Shown here piece by piece: positions 15,187 through 23,336 of a DNA stretch of 64,000 bases. Location: positions 62,001 to 126,000 of the forward strand of contig JACQQF010000027.1 in NCBI GenBank assembly GCA_016207095.1. Reading direction: 5' to 3'. The translations under genes were made by a program, and so were the position numbers. The first letter of the stretch is position 1, and each line of letters begins with the position of its first letter. Below the pieces are notes generated by a model. The model was not told the DNA's origin. It did not search any database and worked only from the letters and a program-made list of their open reading frames with translations. The stretch comes from Candidatus Methylomirabilota bacterium. GTDB taxonomy: Bacteria > Methylomirabilota > Methylomirabilia > Methylomirabilales > Methylomirabilaceae.

Positions 15187-15882
15187 ATGGCGAGTACGGT
15201 GAATCGACAATCGGTGAATTTCGCCTTCTACAAGGTTGACCCGGCCTGGCGGCGCCTTCCGAAGGAAGAGCGAGAGGCAAGTAAGAAGGAGTTCGGTGCC
15301 ACGGTGGAGGAGTGGCGCCAGCGGATGCTGCTCATCCCCTACTCCACGGTCGGGCTGCGCCCCGAGACCGATTTCATGCTCTGGCGGGTCGCTGACTCCC
15401 TGGATCTCCTCCAGGAGATGAGTCGAGCGCTTAATAGGACGGCGCTCGGCGCCTATCTGACAACGCCGTACTCCTTTGTGGCCATGACCAAGCGCTCTAT
15501 CTATGTGGACAAGCATGTCCACCCGGGCCAGGAGGGCCGGCGGGCAGCGATCGTCCCCGGTGAGTACCGCTACCTGTTTGTCTATCCGTTCGTGAAGACC
15601 CGGGACTGGTTCCTGCTGCCGATCGAGCAGCGACAGGAGATGATGGACGTTCACATCAAGGTCGGCCATCAGTTTCCGTCGGTCAAGCTCAATACCACCT
15701 ACTCCTTCGGCCTCGACGACCAGGAGTTCGTGGTGGCGTTTGAGAGCGACAAGCCGGGCGACTTTGTGGATCTCGTCATGGCGCTTCGGGAGACCGAGGG
15801 AAGCCGCTTCACCCTTCGCGACACACCGATCATCACCTGCATTCGAAAACCGATTCACGAGACCTTGGACGACCTGGGCTAG
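15187..15882 (+). CDS. Chlorite dismutase/HemQ-family heme protein
   Basis: A 231-residue member of the Cld/ChdC family. The heme-ligand histidine is probably His161 in KVGHQFPSVK, followed by the family block NTTYSFGLDDQEFVVAFE. The Arg characteristic of true chlorite dismutases is not evident in this block, which favours a coproheme decarboxylase (HemQ) or a related heme enzyme. It stands 10 nt upstream of mqnD in the same direction, so heme and quinone genes are co-transcribed. A GGTGGGAGG-like site precedes the ATG (AAAGTGGGAGG). The family is certain; the exact reaction is not. Confidence 0.85.
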   Translation: MASTVNRQSVNFAFYKVDPAWRRLPKEEREASKKEFGATVEEWRQRMLLIPYSTVGLRPETDFMLWRVADSLDLLQEMSRALNRTALGAYLTTPYSFVAMTKRSIYVDKHVHPGQEGRRAAIVPGEYRYLFVYPFVKTRDWFLLPIEQRQEMMDVHIKVGHQFPSVKLNTTYSFGLDDQEFVVAFESDKPGDFVDLVMALRETEGSRFTLRDTPIITCIRKPIHETLDDLG

Positions 15883-15892
15883 AGAGCGAGCG

Positions 15893-16735
15893 ATGCTGGA
15901 GTCGCGGCTCGTCCGGATCGGACACAGTCCGGACCCGGACGATGCGTTCATGTTCTACGCCCTCGCCAAGGAGCGATTGGACACCGGCAGGCTTCGGTTC
16001 CAACACCTCCTCGAAGGGATCGAGACCCTGAACGGCTGGGCGTTGGAAGGCAGACTCGAGGTGACGGCCATTTCGGCCCACGCCTATGCGTACGTGTCGG
16101 ACCGCTACCTCCTCCTGCCCCACGGCGCGAGTGTCGGTCGGAACTATGGTCCGATCGTCGTGGCGAGACACGGGTTCGACCCCTCCGAGCTTCGCCATAA
16201 GCGAATTGCCGTCCCCGGGAAGCTGACCACTGCATTCCTCGCGTTGCGCCTCTGCCTGGGCGAGTTCGACGCTCTGGAGGTCCCCTTTGACCGGATCTTC
16301 GACTCGATCGAGCAGGGAAAGGCCGAGGCGGGCCTAGTCATCCATGAGGGACAGTTGACGTATAGCGGTCGCGGTTTCGCGAGATTGCTGGATCTCGGAA
16401 CCTGGTGGCAAGAGACAACCGGACTGCCGCTGCCGCTCGGGGCCAACGTCATTCGCAAGGATATGGGTGAGCCAATCTGTTTGGAGGTCTCTCGACTGCT
16501 TCGGACCAGCATCGACTATGGGCTGGCCCACCGCGAGGAGGCCCTACGGTACGCCATGGAGTTCGGGCGCGGGGTGGACACTTCGCTTGCCGATCGGTTC
16601 GTCGGGATGTACGTCAACGACGACACCCGCGCATGGAACCCGGAGAGCAGACTGGGGCTCGAGCGGCTCCTGGACATGGCGTGGGAGCGGCGATTGATCC
16701 CGAAACGGGTCCGCCCGGAGTTTCTTTCCGGCTAA
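15893..16735 (+). CDS. mqnD: MqnD, 1,4-dihydroxy-6-naphthoate synthase (futalosine menaquinone pathway)
   Basis: A 280-residue periplasmic-binding-protein fold enzyme that opens cyclic dehypoxanthinyl futalosine. The opening RIGHSPDPDDAFMFYALA is the MqnD signature, and AISAHAYAYVSDRY, IAVPGKLTTAFLALRL and LVIHEGQLTY are further family motifs. The longer upstream frame overlaps the HemQ gene, so ATG 15893 is chosen. Its presence indicates that menaquinone is made via futalosine here; ubiA- and menG-type genes at 27809-29397 would complete the tail and methylation steps. Confidence 0.92.
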   Translation: MLESRLVRIGHSPDPDDAFMFYALAKERLDTGRLRFQHLLEGIETLNGWALEGRLEVTAISAHAYAYVSDRYLLLPHGASVGRNYGPIVVARHGFDPSELRHKRIAVPGKLTTAFLALRLCLGEFDALEVPFDRIFDSIEQGKAEAGLVIHEGQLTYSGRGFARLLDLGTWWQETTGLPLPLGANVIRKDMGEPICLEVSRLLRTSIDYGLAHREEALRYAMEFGRGVDTSLADRFVGMYVNDDTRAWNPESRLGLERLLDMAWERRLIPKRVRPEFLSG

Positions 16736-17166: not shown

Positions 17167-19614
17167 ATGATCGGCGCGAATGGAAACGGCACGAACCTGG
17201 ATCGAGTTAAGGAAGTGCACGAGTACATTGAGAAACAGCGACAGCGGCGACAAAGCAACAAAGTCCTCCATGCCCACCCCTCCCCACTCTTTTGGTCCGA
17301 TCGCGATGTCCCTGTGAAGGAGGTGATGATCCGGCGGAAATTGGCGAGCCCTGCCATCTCAAAGCGGATCAACCTGTATGTGGGCACCCCCTACTGCCTC
17401 CCCACCAACCCCGACCGGTGCGGCTTCTGCCTGTTCCCAAGCGAGGTCTTCATGGGACAGCACCAGTTAGAGAAATATCTCAAGTATCTCGAGTGGGAAG
17501 GGCGGCGCTATCAGGAGTTCTTCGATGGCGATGAGCTGGCCAGCATCTATTTCGGCGGGGGGACCTCAAACCTCTATAGGCCCGATACGTACGCGAGACT
17601 TCTGGAGATCGTGAGGGGGGTCTTTCCGCACATCCCGCCAGACATCGAGATCACCTTGGAAGGGATTCCTCAGCTCTTCACCCGGGAAAAACTAGTCGCG
17701 ATGAAAACAGCGGGGTTCAACCGGATCAGCATGGGGGTGCAGCAGCTCGACGACGAGATGATCAAGCTGAGCGGCCGAAAGCAGAAGGCCAAGCATGTCT
17801 TCCAGACACTCGAGTGGTGCCAGGAGCTGGGACTTCGAAGCAGCGTCGATCTCATCTTCGGTTGGCCACGGCAGACGGTCGATCACATGCTGAAGGACCT
17901 GGATGCGATCGTCCGAACAGGTGTCCGCCACCTCACGCACTATGAACTGAACGTGGCCGGTCGGACCGATTTCGCACGCAATCACCGAGATGAGCTCCCG
18001 TCGATCGACCAGAACCTCGAGATGTACCGGGTCTCCAAGCAGTTCCTGGAGAGCCACGGGTATCAACAGGCGACGACGTACGACTGGGAGAAGCCGGCTG
18101 ACGATCGGCCAAGCGAGTACCAGTATGAAGACCAGATGCGGAAGTTCTTCACTCAAGACGAGACACAACGGACCGTCGGGTACGACATGTGGGGATGGGG
18201 GTTTGCCGGTGTCTCTTATTTCTTCGGGACCCCCGATTCTCCCGGCTGGGTGTATATGAACTCCACAAGGGCCAACGACTATTTCGCGGCGATTGACGAG
18301 AGCCGTTTCCCGGTCGAACGCGGCTTTCACTACGAGCAGAAAGATTTGCGCTTGACCTGGATGTTTCAGACCCTGCAGGCGATGGAGGCCGACGCCGGGG
18401 CGTACAGGTCGATCTTCGGGGTGGATCTGCTCGATGAATACGAGCCGATCTGGCAGGCGCTGTCCGAGAGAGGGTGGGCGGAGATCACCCCCCAGAAGGT
18501 GACGCTCGTTGGGGATGGCGTGTTCTACACGCCGTTAATCCAGGGCCTCCTCGCACACGACAGGATGGAGGAAATCCGAAAGTCCAGGTCCACGGGGTCG
18601 GCCCTCTTGGAGGCGGAGCCAAAGCCCCAGCAGGCACCCGGCACAACCGCGCCTTTGGAGATCGTGCAGGTTGCGAGCGAGGATCTGGCGGCGAAGTCGG
18701 TAGATTCGGTGGCCACACAGGCCCTTGCGTCTCCATTGGTCGATACGAAAGGCGAGACGCGCCTGGAAGAGGAAACGTTCCTGGAGAACACGCAGGATGG
18801 GGTGGAGCTTGCCCTCCATAGAGTACAGGGTGAGATCCGTCACGACCCGCCCGTCCTTCTCACCCACGGAACCTTCTCGAACGCACAGGTCTGCAGGCTG
18901 CTGGCCCGCTACCTGGCGCGAGAGGGTTTCGATTGCTGGATTCTAGACTTGCGAGGCCATGGCCAGAGCAAGTCGGGACCGGTTCATCCTGACTTCGAAC
19001 GCTTTGGTTTCTTCGATGTCCCGACGGCCTTGGACGCAGTCCGGCGGAGAACTCGACGAGAAAACGTCTTCTGGGTCGGACATAGCGGCGGCGGGCTCGC
19101 GCTCCTGATGCATCTCGCGCGGTACCCCGAGGCCTCTGGACAGATCAGGGGCATCGTGACCCTGGCAAGTCAGGCGACCGACGCGGGCGCCACCTGGAGC
19201 GGAAGGACAAAGATCATCCTGGGTGCACTGGCGACGAACGCCTTAGGCCGGGCCCCCGGGAAGATGCTGGGGCTCGGGCCTCAGGACGAATTCCGTGGCG
19301 TGATGAACCAATGGTTTCGATGGAACTGGAGCGGCCGGTGGACCGGCAAGGACGGCTTTGACTACCTGCAGGCTCTCGAGCGGATTGAGGTACCGGCCCT
19401 CTGCTTGGCCGGAGGGGGAGATCGGTTTATTGCCCCCCATCAAGGCTGTCGCCGGCTGTACAATGCCTTGGGAAGCCTCGACAAGCGAATGGCGTTCTGC
19501 GCCAAATCCGAAGGGTATGCGGAGGATTACAGCCACGCACGGATCATCGCCAGCCGGAGGGCACAGCAAGAAATCTGGCCCATCATCTCGGAGTGGCTCC
19601 TCAAGCGTGCGTAG
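17167..19614 (+). CDS. Fusion: HemN-like radical SAM domain + alpha/beta hydrolase
   Basis: An 815-residue protein with two enzymes in one chain. Residues about 65-430 are a radical SAM barrel related to coproporphyrinogen oxidase HemN/HemW, with IYFGGGTSNLY, RISMGVQQLDDEMIKLSGR and SVDLIFGWPRQT. The cluster cysteines are C77, C85 and C88, so the spacing is CX7CX2C where HemN has CX3CX2C. A Pro/Ala-rich linker (about 480-540) leads to an alpha/beta hydrolase (about 550-815) with an HGTFSN oxyanion loop, nucleophile elbow VGHSGGG and acid loop GGGDRFIAPHQG. It follows HemQ-mqnD on the same strand after an AT-rich gap. The substrate is unknown; a lipid or tetrapyrrole ester is possible. GGAGG lies 12 nt before the ATG. 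Confidence 0.8.
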   Translation: MIGANGNGTNLDRVKEVHEYIEKQRQRRQSNKVLHAHPSPLFWSDRDVPVKEVMIRRKLASPAISKRINLYVGTPYCLPTNPDRCGFCLFPSEVFMGQHQLEKYLKYLEWEGRRYQEFFDGDELASIYFGGGTSNLYRPDTYARLLEIVRGVFPHIPPDIEITLEGIPQLFTREKLVAMKTAGFNRISMGVQQLDDEMIKLSGRKQKAKHVFQTLEWCQELGLRSSVDLIFGWPRQTVDHMLKDLDAIVRTGVRHLTHYELNVAGRTDFARNHRDELPSIDQNLEMYRVSKQFLESHGYQQATTYDWEKPADDRPSEYQYEDQMRKFFTQDETQRTVGYDMWGWGFAGVSYFFGTPDSPGWVYMNSTRANDYFAAIDESRFPVERGFHYEQKDLRLTWMFQTLQAMEADAGAYRSIFGVDLLDEYEPIWQALSERGWAEITPQKVTLVGDGVFYTPLIQGLLAHDRMEEIRKSRSTGSALLEAEPKPQQAPGTTAPLEIVQVASEDLAAKSVDSVATQALASPLVDTKGETRLEEETFLENTQDGVELALHRVQGEIRHDPPVLLTHGTFSNAQVCRLLARYLAREGFDCWILDLRGHGQSKSGPVHPDFERFGFFDVPTALDAVRRRTRRENVFWVGHSGGGLALLMHLARYPEASGQIRGIVTLASQATDAGATWSGRTKIILGALATNALGRAPGKMLGLGPQDEFRGVMNQWFRWNWSGRWTGKDGFDYLQALERIEVPALCLAGGGDRFIAPHQGCRRLYNALGSLDKRMAFCAKSEGYAEDYSHARIIASRRAQQEIWPIISEWLLKRA

Positions 19615-19833: not shown

Positions 19834-19935
19834 GTGCCGTTCCAACTATTTACGCCAAAATGGTGAGGCTAGGGAAAGCGATGGTTCTTAGCAGAGCTGC
19901 TGTCGGCGATTAGCCGCAACAAGTTGGAACGGCAC
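19834..19935. mobile_element. MITE-like element, copy B (102 bp), TA flanks
   Basis: Starts GTGCCGTTCCAAC, ends GTTGGAACGGCAC, flanked by TA at 19832-19833 and 19936-19937. The interior contains GGGAAAGCGATGGTTCTTAGC and CGATTAGCCGCAACAA, shared with copies A and C. Its right end provides the TAG stop of the histidine kinase gene. The 19615-19831 stretch before it holds no gene that I can support. Confidence 0.9.
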
Positions 19936-22526
19936 TAGATCTTTTCGAGCAGTTCCATCCCCTCTCCCACGATTGCCATAACGTCGCGGTACTGGAACGG
20001 CTTATTCAACACCAGATCAATTCCAGCTTCCTTCAGCTTCGCCCGGTCAAGGGTGATCCCCCACCCGGTGACGAGGGCAACGGGGGTCCTGGGCGCGATC
20101 GCCTTGATAGCCGCCGCGACCTCCCATCCTGAGAACTCCGGCATCCCAAGGTCAGTGAGGACGAGATCGAAGGCGCCCTGGCGGAACAGGCGGAGTCCTT
20201 CGCGGCCGCTCGAAGCCGGGACCACGGTGTGGCCTTCCGCCCGGAGGATATCGGAGAGGAGGTCACGGACCACTCCATCGTCGTCAACGATCAGGATGCG
20301 CCCGGGCTTCGCGGACGGCACCGTCTTTGGTTGAGGGACAGGGCGGAGTTTGGACGGGATCGGTAGTCGGATCAGCATGGTGGTGCCCTGCCCGGGATGG
20401 CTGTTCACGTTGATCTCGCCCTTGTGGGCCTTGATGATTCCATAGGACACGCTCAGCCCGAGCCCTGTCCCCTTGACACCCTTGGTCGTGAAGAAGGGAT
20501 CGAAGACCCTGGCCCGCACGTCCTCACTCATTCCGATCCCCGTATCGGACACGCTAGCGCTGACCCACTCCTCTCCCTCTTCAGTCGTGAAGGTGAGCCT
20601 TCCCCCTTTTGGCATCGCCTCCACTGCATTGAAGATGATATTCGTCAGTACCTCTCGGAGTTCCGAGATATTCCCCATCACGGGGGAGATCGTCCCAAGG
20701 TCGGTTGTCACCTCGATGGTCGCGCCGGCAAGGTTCGACTCATCCTTCCACCTGGCCTCGGTGATGGCCAGGGCATCCTTGATGGCCTGGTTGAGGTCCA
20801 CCGGGAAGAAATCTTCCTCCCGTCGTCTCCGGGTGAAGTGTTGCAGTCGGCGGACAGTATTGGCCCCGTCCAGGGCCGCCTTTTCGATCGCCTCGAGGCC
20901 TCGTCGTATCTCGTCGCCCCGGACGCCCCGGTGCAGGAGCTGGGCACGCCCAAGGATCGCGCCCAAGATGTTGTTGAAGTCGTGAGCCACCCCAGATGCC
21001 ATCTCGCCCAGCGCGCGGAGTCGTTCGGTGCGGATGAGCTGCTCCGCGAGTTGCTTCCGTTCCCTGATATCTCGCGCGATCCCCTGCCAGCCGATCACCT
21101 GACCCGCAGCATCCCGAATAGTCACCGTCCCGATCTCGACCGGGACGACGCCGGAGCCGTCCTTCTTCAGCATATCCAGCTCATAGAGGCGGAATGGGTC
21201 TTCTCCCCTCACCGCTCTGGCAAAGATCTCCTGAGCCCGGCGCTGGCTCGGGGGGGTCAGAATGTCGGTGGAGTAACGACCCTGAAGCTCCTCGGGAGTG
21301 TAGCCGAGCATCTCTTCCACCTTCGGATTCACATAGGTGAACCGGCCCTCGGGGTCCAGGGCGTAGATGACGTCGCGGACGTGCTCGGCCAGCAGCCGGT
21401 ATTTCTCCTCCGAGGCCTTGACCGCCTCCGCCTGGGCTTGAACCGCCCGAAAGAGCTCCGCGTTCTCGATGGCGATGGCAGCCTGGCGGGCGATACCATT
21501 CACCAGACTTACCTCCTCCCTGGTGAAGCGGTGTTCGCTTGTCCACCAGATGACGTAGAGCCCCCCGATGATCTTGTCCTTCGCCAGCATCGGAACAAAC
21601 AGCGCTGATCTATGCGCAAACGAGCGAAACACCGGGTGATTGAGCCTGCTGTCGCTGTCGGGATTGTTAGTATGAACCGCGGTTTTTGCTGCAAACGCCT
21701 CCTCGACGAATCGAAATCCCGCGATGGGGAGCGGCGTCCGTATAAACGCTTCCAGGAGGTCTTTCGGCAGACGGTACCCTGCAAATGGGATGAGACACCC
21801 TCCGTCCGCATCCACCAGGTAGGCGCCTGCGGTATCAGCCCCGACGACGTGGGCGACCGCTCGCGCGATCCGCCGGACGGTCTCCTGCAGATCAAGTGTG
21901 GAATTGACGGAGTCGCTGACCTCCAGCAGCGTCTGGGTTTCGCTCAATCTGGTCTGGGTCTCACCGATCAGACGGGCGTTCTCAAGCGCGATGCTGAGCT
22001 GTCCCGCGACGGTCTGGAGCAACAGCAGCTCAATGCTCGAGAAAGATGCTGGGTCCTCCTTGGCCAGGTTCAGCACGCCGATTTGCTGATCCTGTACGAC
22101 GAGAGGGACGCATGCATGGGAGGCGGCCGCTCGCCCCGAAAGGGCCGGTTGGGGGCAGTGATCGATGACACTACACCGGGGAAGTGGATCTTCGACAGCA
22201 AAGGAACTGAGGCAGGGACAGTTGGGGCGGGTCAGCGAGCCAGCGGATACTGGCTCCTCATGCGCTGCATGTCGCACCGCGGCAAGGTACACCGTGCGAT
22301 CCGGAGACACACGGACCGCAGGCCAGACCACGTCGCCAGGCGGATCCTGGGAGAGGTAGATCCACCCGAGGATCCCCTCATCAATCGCAGACAGGAGCTC
22401 CCGCAGGGCGGTATCCAAGAGCTGGTCGAGGGCAGACGACTGGGCCGCCGCCGAGACGGCCATTACCGCCGACAGGCTTCTGCCGGTCAGTCGTTCTACT
22501 GTATCCGCTCGAATCGCTTGCCTCAA
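19935..22526 (-). CDS. Hybrid sensor histidine kinase: GAF-GAF-PAS-HisKA-HATPase-REC
   Basis: An 863-residue cytosolic sensor kinase with no membrane helices. Two GAF domains (about 25-185 and 205-355) are followed by a PAS domain (about 375-490, with YRLLAEHVRDVIYALDPEGR), a HisKA domain with phosphorylated His near 513 (SGVAHDFNNILGAILGRAQ), an ATPase domain (VSDTGIGMSEDVRARVFDPF, then GTGLGLSVSYGI) and a C-terminal receiver whose acceptor Asp is near 791 (DLVLTDLGMPEFSG). The class resembles NtrB-like hybrid kinases. The start is a TTG at 22526 with weak support; an internal ATG (MAVSAAAQSS) is an alternative. The stop codon TAG is formed by the adjoining MITE. No partner regulator is adjacent. 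Confidence 0.93.
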   Translation of the reverse strand: MRQAIRADTVERLTGRSLSAVMAVSAAAQSSALDQLLDTALRELLSAIDEGILGWIYLSQDPPGDVVWPAVRVSPDRTVYLAAVRHAAHEEPVSAGSLTRPNCPCLSSFAVEDPLPRCSVIDHCPQPALSGRAAASHACVPLVVQDQQIGVLNLAKEDPASFSSIELLLLQTVAGQLSIALENARLIGETQTRLSETQTLLEVSDSVNSTLDLQETVRRIARAVAHVVGADTAGAYLVDADGGCLIPFAGYRLPKDLLEAFIRTPLPIAGFRFVEEAFAAKTAVHTNNPDSDSRLNHPVFRSFAHRSALFVPMLAKDKIIGGLYVIWWTSEHRFTREEVSLVNGIARQAAIAIENAELFRAVQAQAEAVKASEEKYRLLAEHVRDVIYALDPEGRFTYVNPKVEEMLGYTPEELQGRYSTDILTPPSQRRAQEIFARAVRGEDPFRLYELDMLKKDGSGVVPVEIGTVTIRDAAGQVIGWQGIARDIRERKQLAEQLIRTERLRALGEMASGVAHDFNNILGAILGRAQLLHRGVRGDEIRRGLEAIEKAALDGANTVRRLQHFTRRRREEDFFPVDLNQAIKDALAITEARWKDESNLAGATIEVTTDLGTISPVMGNISELREVLTNIIFNAVEAMPKGGRLTFTTEEGEEWVSASVSDTGIGMSEDVRARVFDPFFTTKGVKGTGLGLSVSYGIIKAHKGEINVNSHPGQGTTMLIRLPIPSKLRPVPQPKTVPSAKPGRILIVDDDGVVRDLLSDILRAEGHTVVPASSGREGLRLFRQGAFDLVLTDLGMPEFSGWEVAAAIKAIAPRTPVALVTGWGITLDRAKLKEAGIDLVLNKPFQYRDVMAIVGEGMELLEKI

Positions 22527-22610: not shown

Positions 22611-23336
22611 TTAGACCCGCTCCGCTACGAGGCGGCCCTCCCGCATGACCGGCACGACGTCGGTCAGATCCACCTGTGCGCAGATCTCGAGGTCCGCCCC
22701 AAACCCTTTCCGGGTGATGCCGCGTCCCCATTCGCAGCCTTGGAGCACCTCGAGAAGGTCTCCTCGGTTTGTTGAATAGAGCAGGTGCGCTGCCCTGGCG
22801 GCATCGCTGAGCTCAAGGGAGCGATCGGAGATGCGGGAAAGGCGATCGATCAACATCCCGCCCCCAACAGCATCTTCAAAGCAGAAGTGGCCGTTTCGGC
22901 CCGCGCAGACGATCAGGACGTCGAGGCCGGCACGTCGCAGCCAGCGAGCACTAGCGGACACGTTCAGGAAGGCGCACGCGATCACCTCCCGAGCGCCCTC
23001 GATCGCTCGAAACGCGCGCGTTCCGTTGGTCGTGGTGAGAACGACGATCTTCCCCTCGATCCGTTCCCGTGCGTATTCGCCTGGGGAATTGCCGAGGTCT
23101 ACCCCTGCCATCTTGGCGGCCGCCCGTTCCCCCCCAAGCAGGACGCCGTCGCCGAGCGTCAGCGCCATGGCCCTGGCCTCGCGCAACGTTCGGACAGGGA
23201 CGATGCCGGCACAACCATGGTGCAACGCGATGGTGATCGTGGTGGAAGCCCTGATGACGTCGATCACCACGGCCGCTCGTCCGGCCGCCGAGCGTCGGCC
23301 CAGATCCCGCCGGCTCAACGCAATGTCCACTCTCAC
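22611..23336 (-). CDS. comB: 2-phosphosulfolactate phosphatase-like protein (ComB family)
   Basis: A 241-residue ComB-fold protein. VVIDVIRASTTITIALHHGC near the N-terminus and LLGGERAAAKMAGVDLGNSP, TTTNGTRAF and CAGRNGHFCFEDAVGGGMLID are family signatures. In methanogens ComB dephosphorylates phosphosulfolactate on the coenzyme M route; in other bacteria it may serve sulfolactate metabolism or an unknown phosphatase function. No other CoM genes are visible here. It starts at a GTG that overlaps the HAD gene's stop (GTGA), so two putative phosphatases are coupled. Confidence 0.85.
   Translation of the reverse strand: MRVDIALSRRDLGRRSAAGRAAVVIDVIRASTTITIALHHGCAGIVPVRTLREARAMALTLGDGVLLGGERAAAKMAGVDLGNSPGEYARERIEGKIVVLTTTNGTRAFRAIEGAREVIACAFLNVSASARWLRRAGLDVLIVCAGRNGHFCFEDAVGGGMLIDRLSRISDRSLELSDAARAAHLLYSTNRGDLLEVLQGCEWGRGITRKGFGADLEICAQVDLTDVVPVMREGRLVAERV

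Follow-up and report, generated by a model that had tools for sequence, protein, structure and literature searches.

A radical SAM and alpha/beta hydrolase fusion of Methylomirabilis that may modify and release carrier-bound acyl chains

In the window (the whole stretch of 64,000 nucleotides of a Methylomirabilis genome that was analysed), one gene encodes a radical SAM domain fused to an alpha/beta hydrolase. Judged by its motif spacing and by Streptomyces homologues with a published cluster layout, the radical SAM domain belongs to the Cx7CxxC family of the cyclopropanases Jaw5 and Pfl2, and the fusion probably combines a dual-SAM enzyme for one-carbon transfer to carrier-bound enoyl chains with the hydrolase that releases them. 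The enzyme family is already known; what is new, within the collections searched, is its fused and PKS-free form in a methanotroph. The Jaw5-type cyclopropanase family, which the literature describes from Streptomyces polyketide pathways, hereby gains members in Methylomirabilota, Acidobacteriota, Myxococcota and Deinococcota, and the fusion would unite the installation of a ring or branch with release in a single protein.

An intact two-domain gene

The features of the locus are as follows.

15187 to 15882, plus strand: chlorite-dismutase/HemQ-family gene (PF06778, 200 bits), apparent bystander
about 15890 to 16735, plus strand: mqnD (PF02621, 238 bits), fixed left flank of the site, apparent bystander
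17167 to 19614, plus strand: fusion gene, Cx7CxxC HemN-like radical SAM domain and alpha/beta hydrolase, 815 amino acids
17167 to 18591, plus strand: radical SAM domain, residues 1–475 (PF04055; fold match to HemN 1olt; Streptomyces cyclopropanase-type clade)
17395 to 17430, plus strand: Cx7CxxC cluster motif C77-LPTNPDR-C85-GF-C88; spacing invariant in 30 of 30 relatives
18592 to 18765, plus strand: linker, residues ~476–533, predicted to be disordered (pLDDT) and fast-evolving (dN/dS)
18766 to 19611, plus strand: alpha/beta hydrolase domain, residues 534–815, with putative triad S640, D752 and H790 (PF12146/PF00561; lipase-like folds)
19935 to 22526, minus strand: histidine kinase with GAF, PAS and receiver domains, convergent with the fusion at the fusion loci inspected

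The open reading frame of the fusion begins with ATG and has no internal stops. Pfam domains were assigned at residues 84–246 (Radical_SAM, whole-protein E 3.8e-18), 563–669 (Hydrolase_4, E 1.6e-21) and 561–709 (Abhydrolase_1). The full-length fusion was found in 10 of 15 Methylomirabilis genomes; one is that of the window, and in the nine others the same frame is open at 66–88% identity. Purifying selection acts on the radical SAM domain and on the hydrolase domain (dN/dS 0.07–0.14 in both), and constraint on the linker is far weaker than on either (dN/dS 0.5–1.1). The open frame in these nine genomes, together with a dN/dS of about 0.1 in both domains, ruled out a sequencing frameshift joining two genes, and the fusion that an earlier note had described from the bare sequence is real.

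A structure prediction of the linker had been proposed in the same note. AlphaFold2, based on an alignment of 24 sequences, predicted two domains, for the most part with confidence, and a disordered stretch between them (residues 476–529, pLDDT 25–35); the cluster loop at residues 77–93 was poorly modelled. The linker was also considered as a hidden carrier domain, which was ruled out by its disorder and lack of conservation. No characterised protein with this exact two-domain architecture was found in PDB or NCBIfam, as had been supposed.

Family and relatives of the radical SAM domain

As originally assigned, the cysteines of the cluster motif are C77, C85 and C88, and their CX7CX2C spacing holds without exception in the 30 family members that were examined. 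It departs from the CX3CX2C of HemN, which had been pointed out before: the ten HemN/HemW-like outgroup proteins have a shorter spacing, nearly all of them plainly CX3CX2C. Yet the spacing is not unprecedented, because it is the published signature of Jaw5 and Pfl2. A 2026 study reported Cx7CxxC to be invariant in the cyclopropanases of polycyclopropanated (POP) polyketides, with C68, C76 and C79 in Jaw5 (PMC13389473). In a tree of 40 rows, some long branches of which are unsure, the 30 proteins with Cx7CxxC group together in one clade (support 100/99) apart from the ten HemN/HemW-like proteins, and Streptomycetaceae homologues with a KS-AT-DH-ACP layout fall inside this clade together with the Methylomirabilis domain. 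At eight positions (T80, P82, E93, W233, H258, E260, N262 and P456), the family is invariant and the HemN/HemW-like outgroup does not have the family residue.

The best fold match of the radical SAM part is HemN (1olt, TM 0.79 by target length), and the fusion has the overall fold and the SAM-I motifs in common with HemN and HemW. Together with the HemQ-like gene nearby, the structural match would fit a HemN-type tetrapyrrole enzyme with an added hydrolase. However, the fusion scores 133.8 bits with the NCBIfam HemN model (cut-off 324.95) and 141.3 bits with the HemW model (cut-off 205.4), and membership in HemN, HemW, HutW or STM4012 was ruled out, as none of the curated cut-offs was reached. 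The cluster spacing and the eight family-specific residues set it apart as well, a separate HemW is present in the window's genome, and the HemQ-like gene nearby occurs independently of the fusion. A tetrapyrrole enzyme is therefore hardly credible.

A HemN-like barrel is also common to the class C radical SAM methylases NosN/NocN, TbtI and C10P. NocN has CX3CX2C whereas the fusion has Cx7CxxC, and the gene context differs, but in the alignment the SAM-II-binding positions of NocN (Y34, Y96, R153, D196 and S225) are conserved and correspond to Y71, Y128, R186, D228 and T257 of the fusion. Thiopeptides are the substrates of other class C enzymes, and the substrate of the radical SAM domain might likewise have nothing to do with acyl chains and be a peptide or small molecule. 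This is very improbable, because neighbouring carrier-protein and ketosynthase genes recur in Rokubacteria, Myxococcota, Actinomycetota, Acidobacteriota and Deinococcota.

A contig scan for the family returned 30 loci, mostly from Methylomirabilota and Acidobacteriota. In Streptomycetaceae, a profile search identified eight members among 394 genomes, 45–47% identical to the radical SAM domain of the window. Neighbours were typed in three of these loci (L093, L095 and L097), and in all three a KS-AT-DH-ACP synthase adjoins the radical SAM gene. Nearby genes typed in L093 are a ketoreductase and a hotdog acyl-CoA thioesterase, the latter also typed in L097, and a gene reading like a ketoreductase adjoins the radical SAM gene in L095. 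The published fuelimycin cluster has the same layout of KS-AT-DH-ACP synthase, ketoreductase and hotdog thioesterase (PMC13389473). In a Rokubacterium, the order is radical SAM, KS and ACP; in a myxobacterial MAG, KS, ACPs, AMP-ligase and acyl-CoA dehydrogenase are followed by radical SAM, hydrolase and PPTase; in Nocardia takedensis, a PKS (KS-AT-DH-ACP), radical SAM and an alpha/beta hydrolase are found; and in an Acidobacteriia MAG, PKSs flank the radical SAM gene on both sides. Two Deinococcus plasmids carry radical SAM, KAS III and ACP behind a PKS, with a GNAT. No carrier-protein, ketosynthase or PKS neighbours were found for the Vicinamibacterial copies.

Thus, of the suggestion in the earlier note that a bifunctional enzyme builds and then releases a lipid-like or tetrapyrrole-like product, the lipid-like part gained support from the ACP, KS and PKS clusters and the downstream hydrolase in relatives, and the tetrapyrrole-like part fell with the HemN and HemW scores and the separate HemW. 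Its lipid guess was the better one.

Common to the fusion and the POP cyclopropanases Jaw5, Pfl2 and Log2 (jawsamycin and fuelimycin-type iterative PKS pathways) are the Cx7CxxC motif and the HemN-like fold; the fusion also shares one clade with the Streptomyces enzymes that lie beside the synthase, ketoreductase and hotdog thioesterase, and carrier-protein context is found in its relatives. In contrast to them, the Methylomirabilis enzyme is fused to an alpha/beta hydrolase, is without a conserved PKS partner and is paired with a sensor kinase, and its identity to the Streptomyces members is limited to the range given above. The swf PKS clusters of sponge symbionts likewise have a radical SAM enzyme beside PKS/FAS genes, but SwfC is of another family with a B12-binding domain and CX3CX2C, and kinship was ruled out on these grounds. 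Kinship with the ladderane pathway was set aside; the ladderane paper mentions radical SAM enzymes only in passing.

Two further observations concern gene clusters of relatives. The Deinococcus plasmid loci (L075, 13989–16813, and L076, 13962–16818) hold an uncharacterised cluster of PKS/NRPS, thioester reductase, aminotransferase, GNAT, radical SAM, KAS III and ACP. Five Vicinamibacterial loci (L038, L039, L041, L045 and L059) have a conserved upstream gene of ~850–890 amino acids, and most of them a convergent downstream gene set reading like acyl-CoA metabolism.

The hydrolase and the proposed reaction

The triad residues S640, D752 and H790 are kept in 10 of 10 fusions and are also visible in the separate hydrolases of relatives. 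The earlier note had raised the question of whether the two domains occur as neighbouring single-domain genes in related genomes, and they do: directly downstream of the radical SAM gene, the myxobacterial MAG and Rokubacterium G042 each have an orthologous hydrolase (54–58% identical) as a gene of its own; the radical SAM gene of G042 is interrupted by an assembly frameshift. From this arrangement of the two genes, we infer that the fusion most likely arose by the joining of two neighbouring genes. Among 99 genomes searched, hydrolase orthologues occurred only alongside the radical SAM gene, except in G045, in which the contig ends at the 5' end of the hydrolase gene. The tested genomes of Vicinamibacteria, Acidobacteriia, Nocardia and other Actinomycetota yielded no orthologue, which places the hydrolase outside the core chemistry, and eight other genomes bearing the radical SAM gene had weak hydrolase matches or none.

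The fold matches of the hydrolase are lipase-like, the best being lysosomal acid lipase, a PE hydrolase and monoacylglycerol lipases. Thus, it might be a lipase or phospholipase that supplies the acyl substrate or trims glycerolipid products, and not a carrier-protein thioesterase. This possibility concerns the hydrolase half only and is compatible with the best explanation of the radical SAM half. It deserves consideration but is not the expected outcome, because alpha/beta hydrolase fold matches are uninformative on the substrate and the carrier proteins and ketosynthases next to the relatives point to carrier-bound chains.

For one-carbon transfer to carrier-bound chains followed by release, we infer the chemistry and the order of steps as follows. 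SAM-I on the [4Fe-4S] cluster held by C77, C85 and C88 would be cleaved to a 5'-deoxyadenosyl radical, which would abstract a hydrogen from the methyl group of a second SAM. The methylene radical would add to an sp2 carbon of a 2-enoyl chain on acyl carrier protein, and ring closure would lead to a cyclopropane or reduction to a methyl branch. The C-terminal serine hydrolase on its disordered tether would then free the modified chain, most likely via thioester hydrolysis. As no conserved PKS partner of the dedicated iterative kind was found among the 15 genomes of the genus, the likely substrate source in Methylomirabilis would be ordinary fatty acid synthesis, with an intermediate of the type II pathway being modified. 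A single, FabF-sized KS is present in 13 of the 15 genomes, and extra ketosynthases are restricted to G000 and G013. Two ketosynthase matches lie near a contig end in G000 only (L105, contig C17), beside AcpS-, squalene synthase- and HpnK-like genes, and the G013 locus (L106, contig C55) has large multidomain synthase genes of ~1350 and ~2520 amino acids with KS and ACP matches.

The radical SAM domain might also methylate instead of cyclopropanate and account for the 10-methyl C16 acids that have been ascribed to M. oxyfera. In a passage of PMC9125203 that cites Kool 2012, 10-methylhexadecanoic acid is given as putatively diagnostic for M. oxyfera. Class C enzymes are able to methylate as well as to cyclopropanate, and the methyl group at C10 of a C16 chain would sit on the alpha carbon of the C8 synthesis intermediate, a position attackable in 2-octenoyl-ACP. 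The putative M. oxyfera genome G006 has the fusion but just a weak 39-bit match to PF02353, the CFA-type methyltransferases, which include the known 10-methyl enzyme. The route via that enzyme is the subject of PMC5660069. The weak match in G006 and the position of C10 make the link to 10-methyl C16 acids an attractive hypothesis. However, cyclopropanation is what the closest characterised relatives carry out, a hydrolase that releases the chain early is a poor fit for a membrane fatty acid, and G006 is only putatively M. oxyfera, so that methylation as the source of these acids is quite unlikely.

The Methylomirabilis locus and its probable regulation

In three Methylomirabilis genomes (G004, G009 and G014), the fusion and the GAF/PAS kinase are both missing from the same site, where mqnD and the flanking pyrophosphatase or MFS gene remain. 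The two genes thus behave as a single module. G001 has lost the fusion but retains the kinase gene minus an internal stretch of approximately residues 192–476 (L118, 3738–5438, plus strand). The adjacent kinase is probably co-inherited with the fusion and probably controls the module. Rokubacterial radical SAM copies also adjoin GAF-domain proteins, and in two cases sigma-54-type regulators as well. Within the window, matches to sigma-54 promoters were no more frequent than by chance with none upstream of the fusion, and no RNA element was found at 14–24 kb.

Taken at its widest, the proposal would be that a PKS-independent cyclopropanase/C-methylase and thioesterase fusion edits intermediates of ordinary fatty acid synthesis under a dedicated sensor kinase and explains the 10-methyl C16 acids of M. 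oxyfera or an undetected cyclopropane lipid, which is rather doubtful. The fusion may make a ring-bearing or branched lipid of a new type in a methane-eating bacterium without the usual polyketide machinery. If active on ordinary fatty acid synthesis, it would provide a testable source for the biomarker lipids of bacteria that oxidise methane with nitrite, and a compact part with which cyclopropane fatty acids could be made.

The HemQ-like and mqnD genes, which had been noted upstream of the fusion, are real but look like bystanders: mqnD is in place at loci with and without the fusion, from which it is separated by a gap of ~430 bp, and the HemQ-like gene is present at several fusion-less loci and was not detected at the M. 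oxyfera-like locus. On the minus strand at 22611–23336, the window also contains a 2-phosphosulfolactate phosphatase-family gene (PF04029, 231 bits) of the coenzyme M type, which is not obviously expected here.
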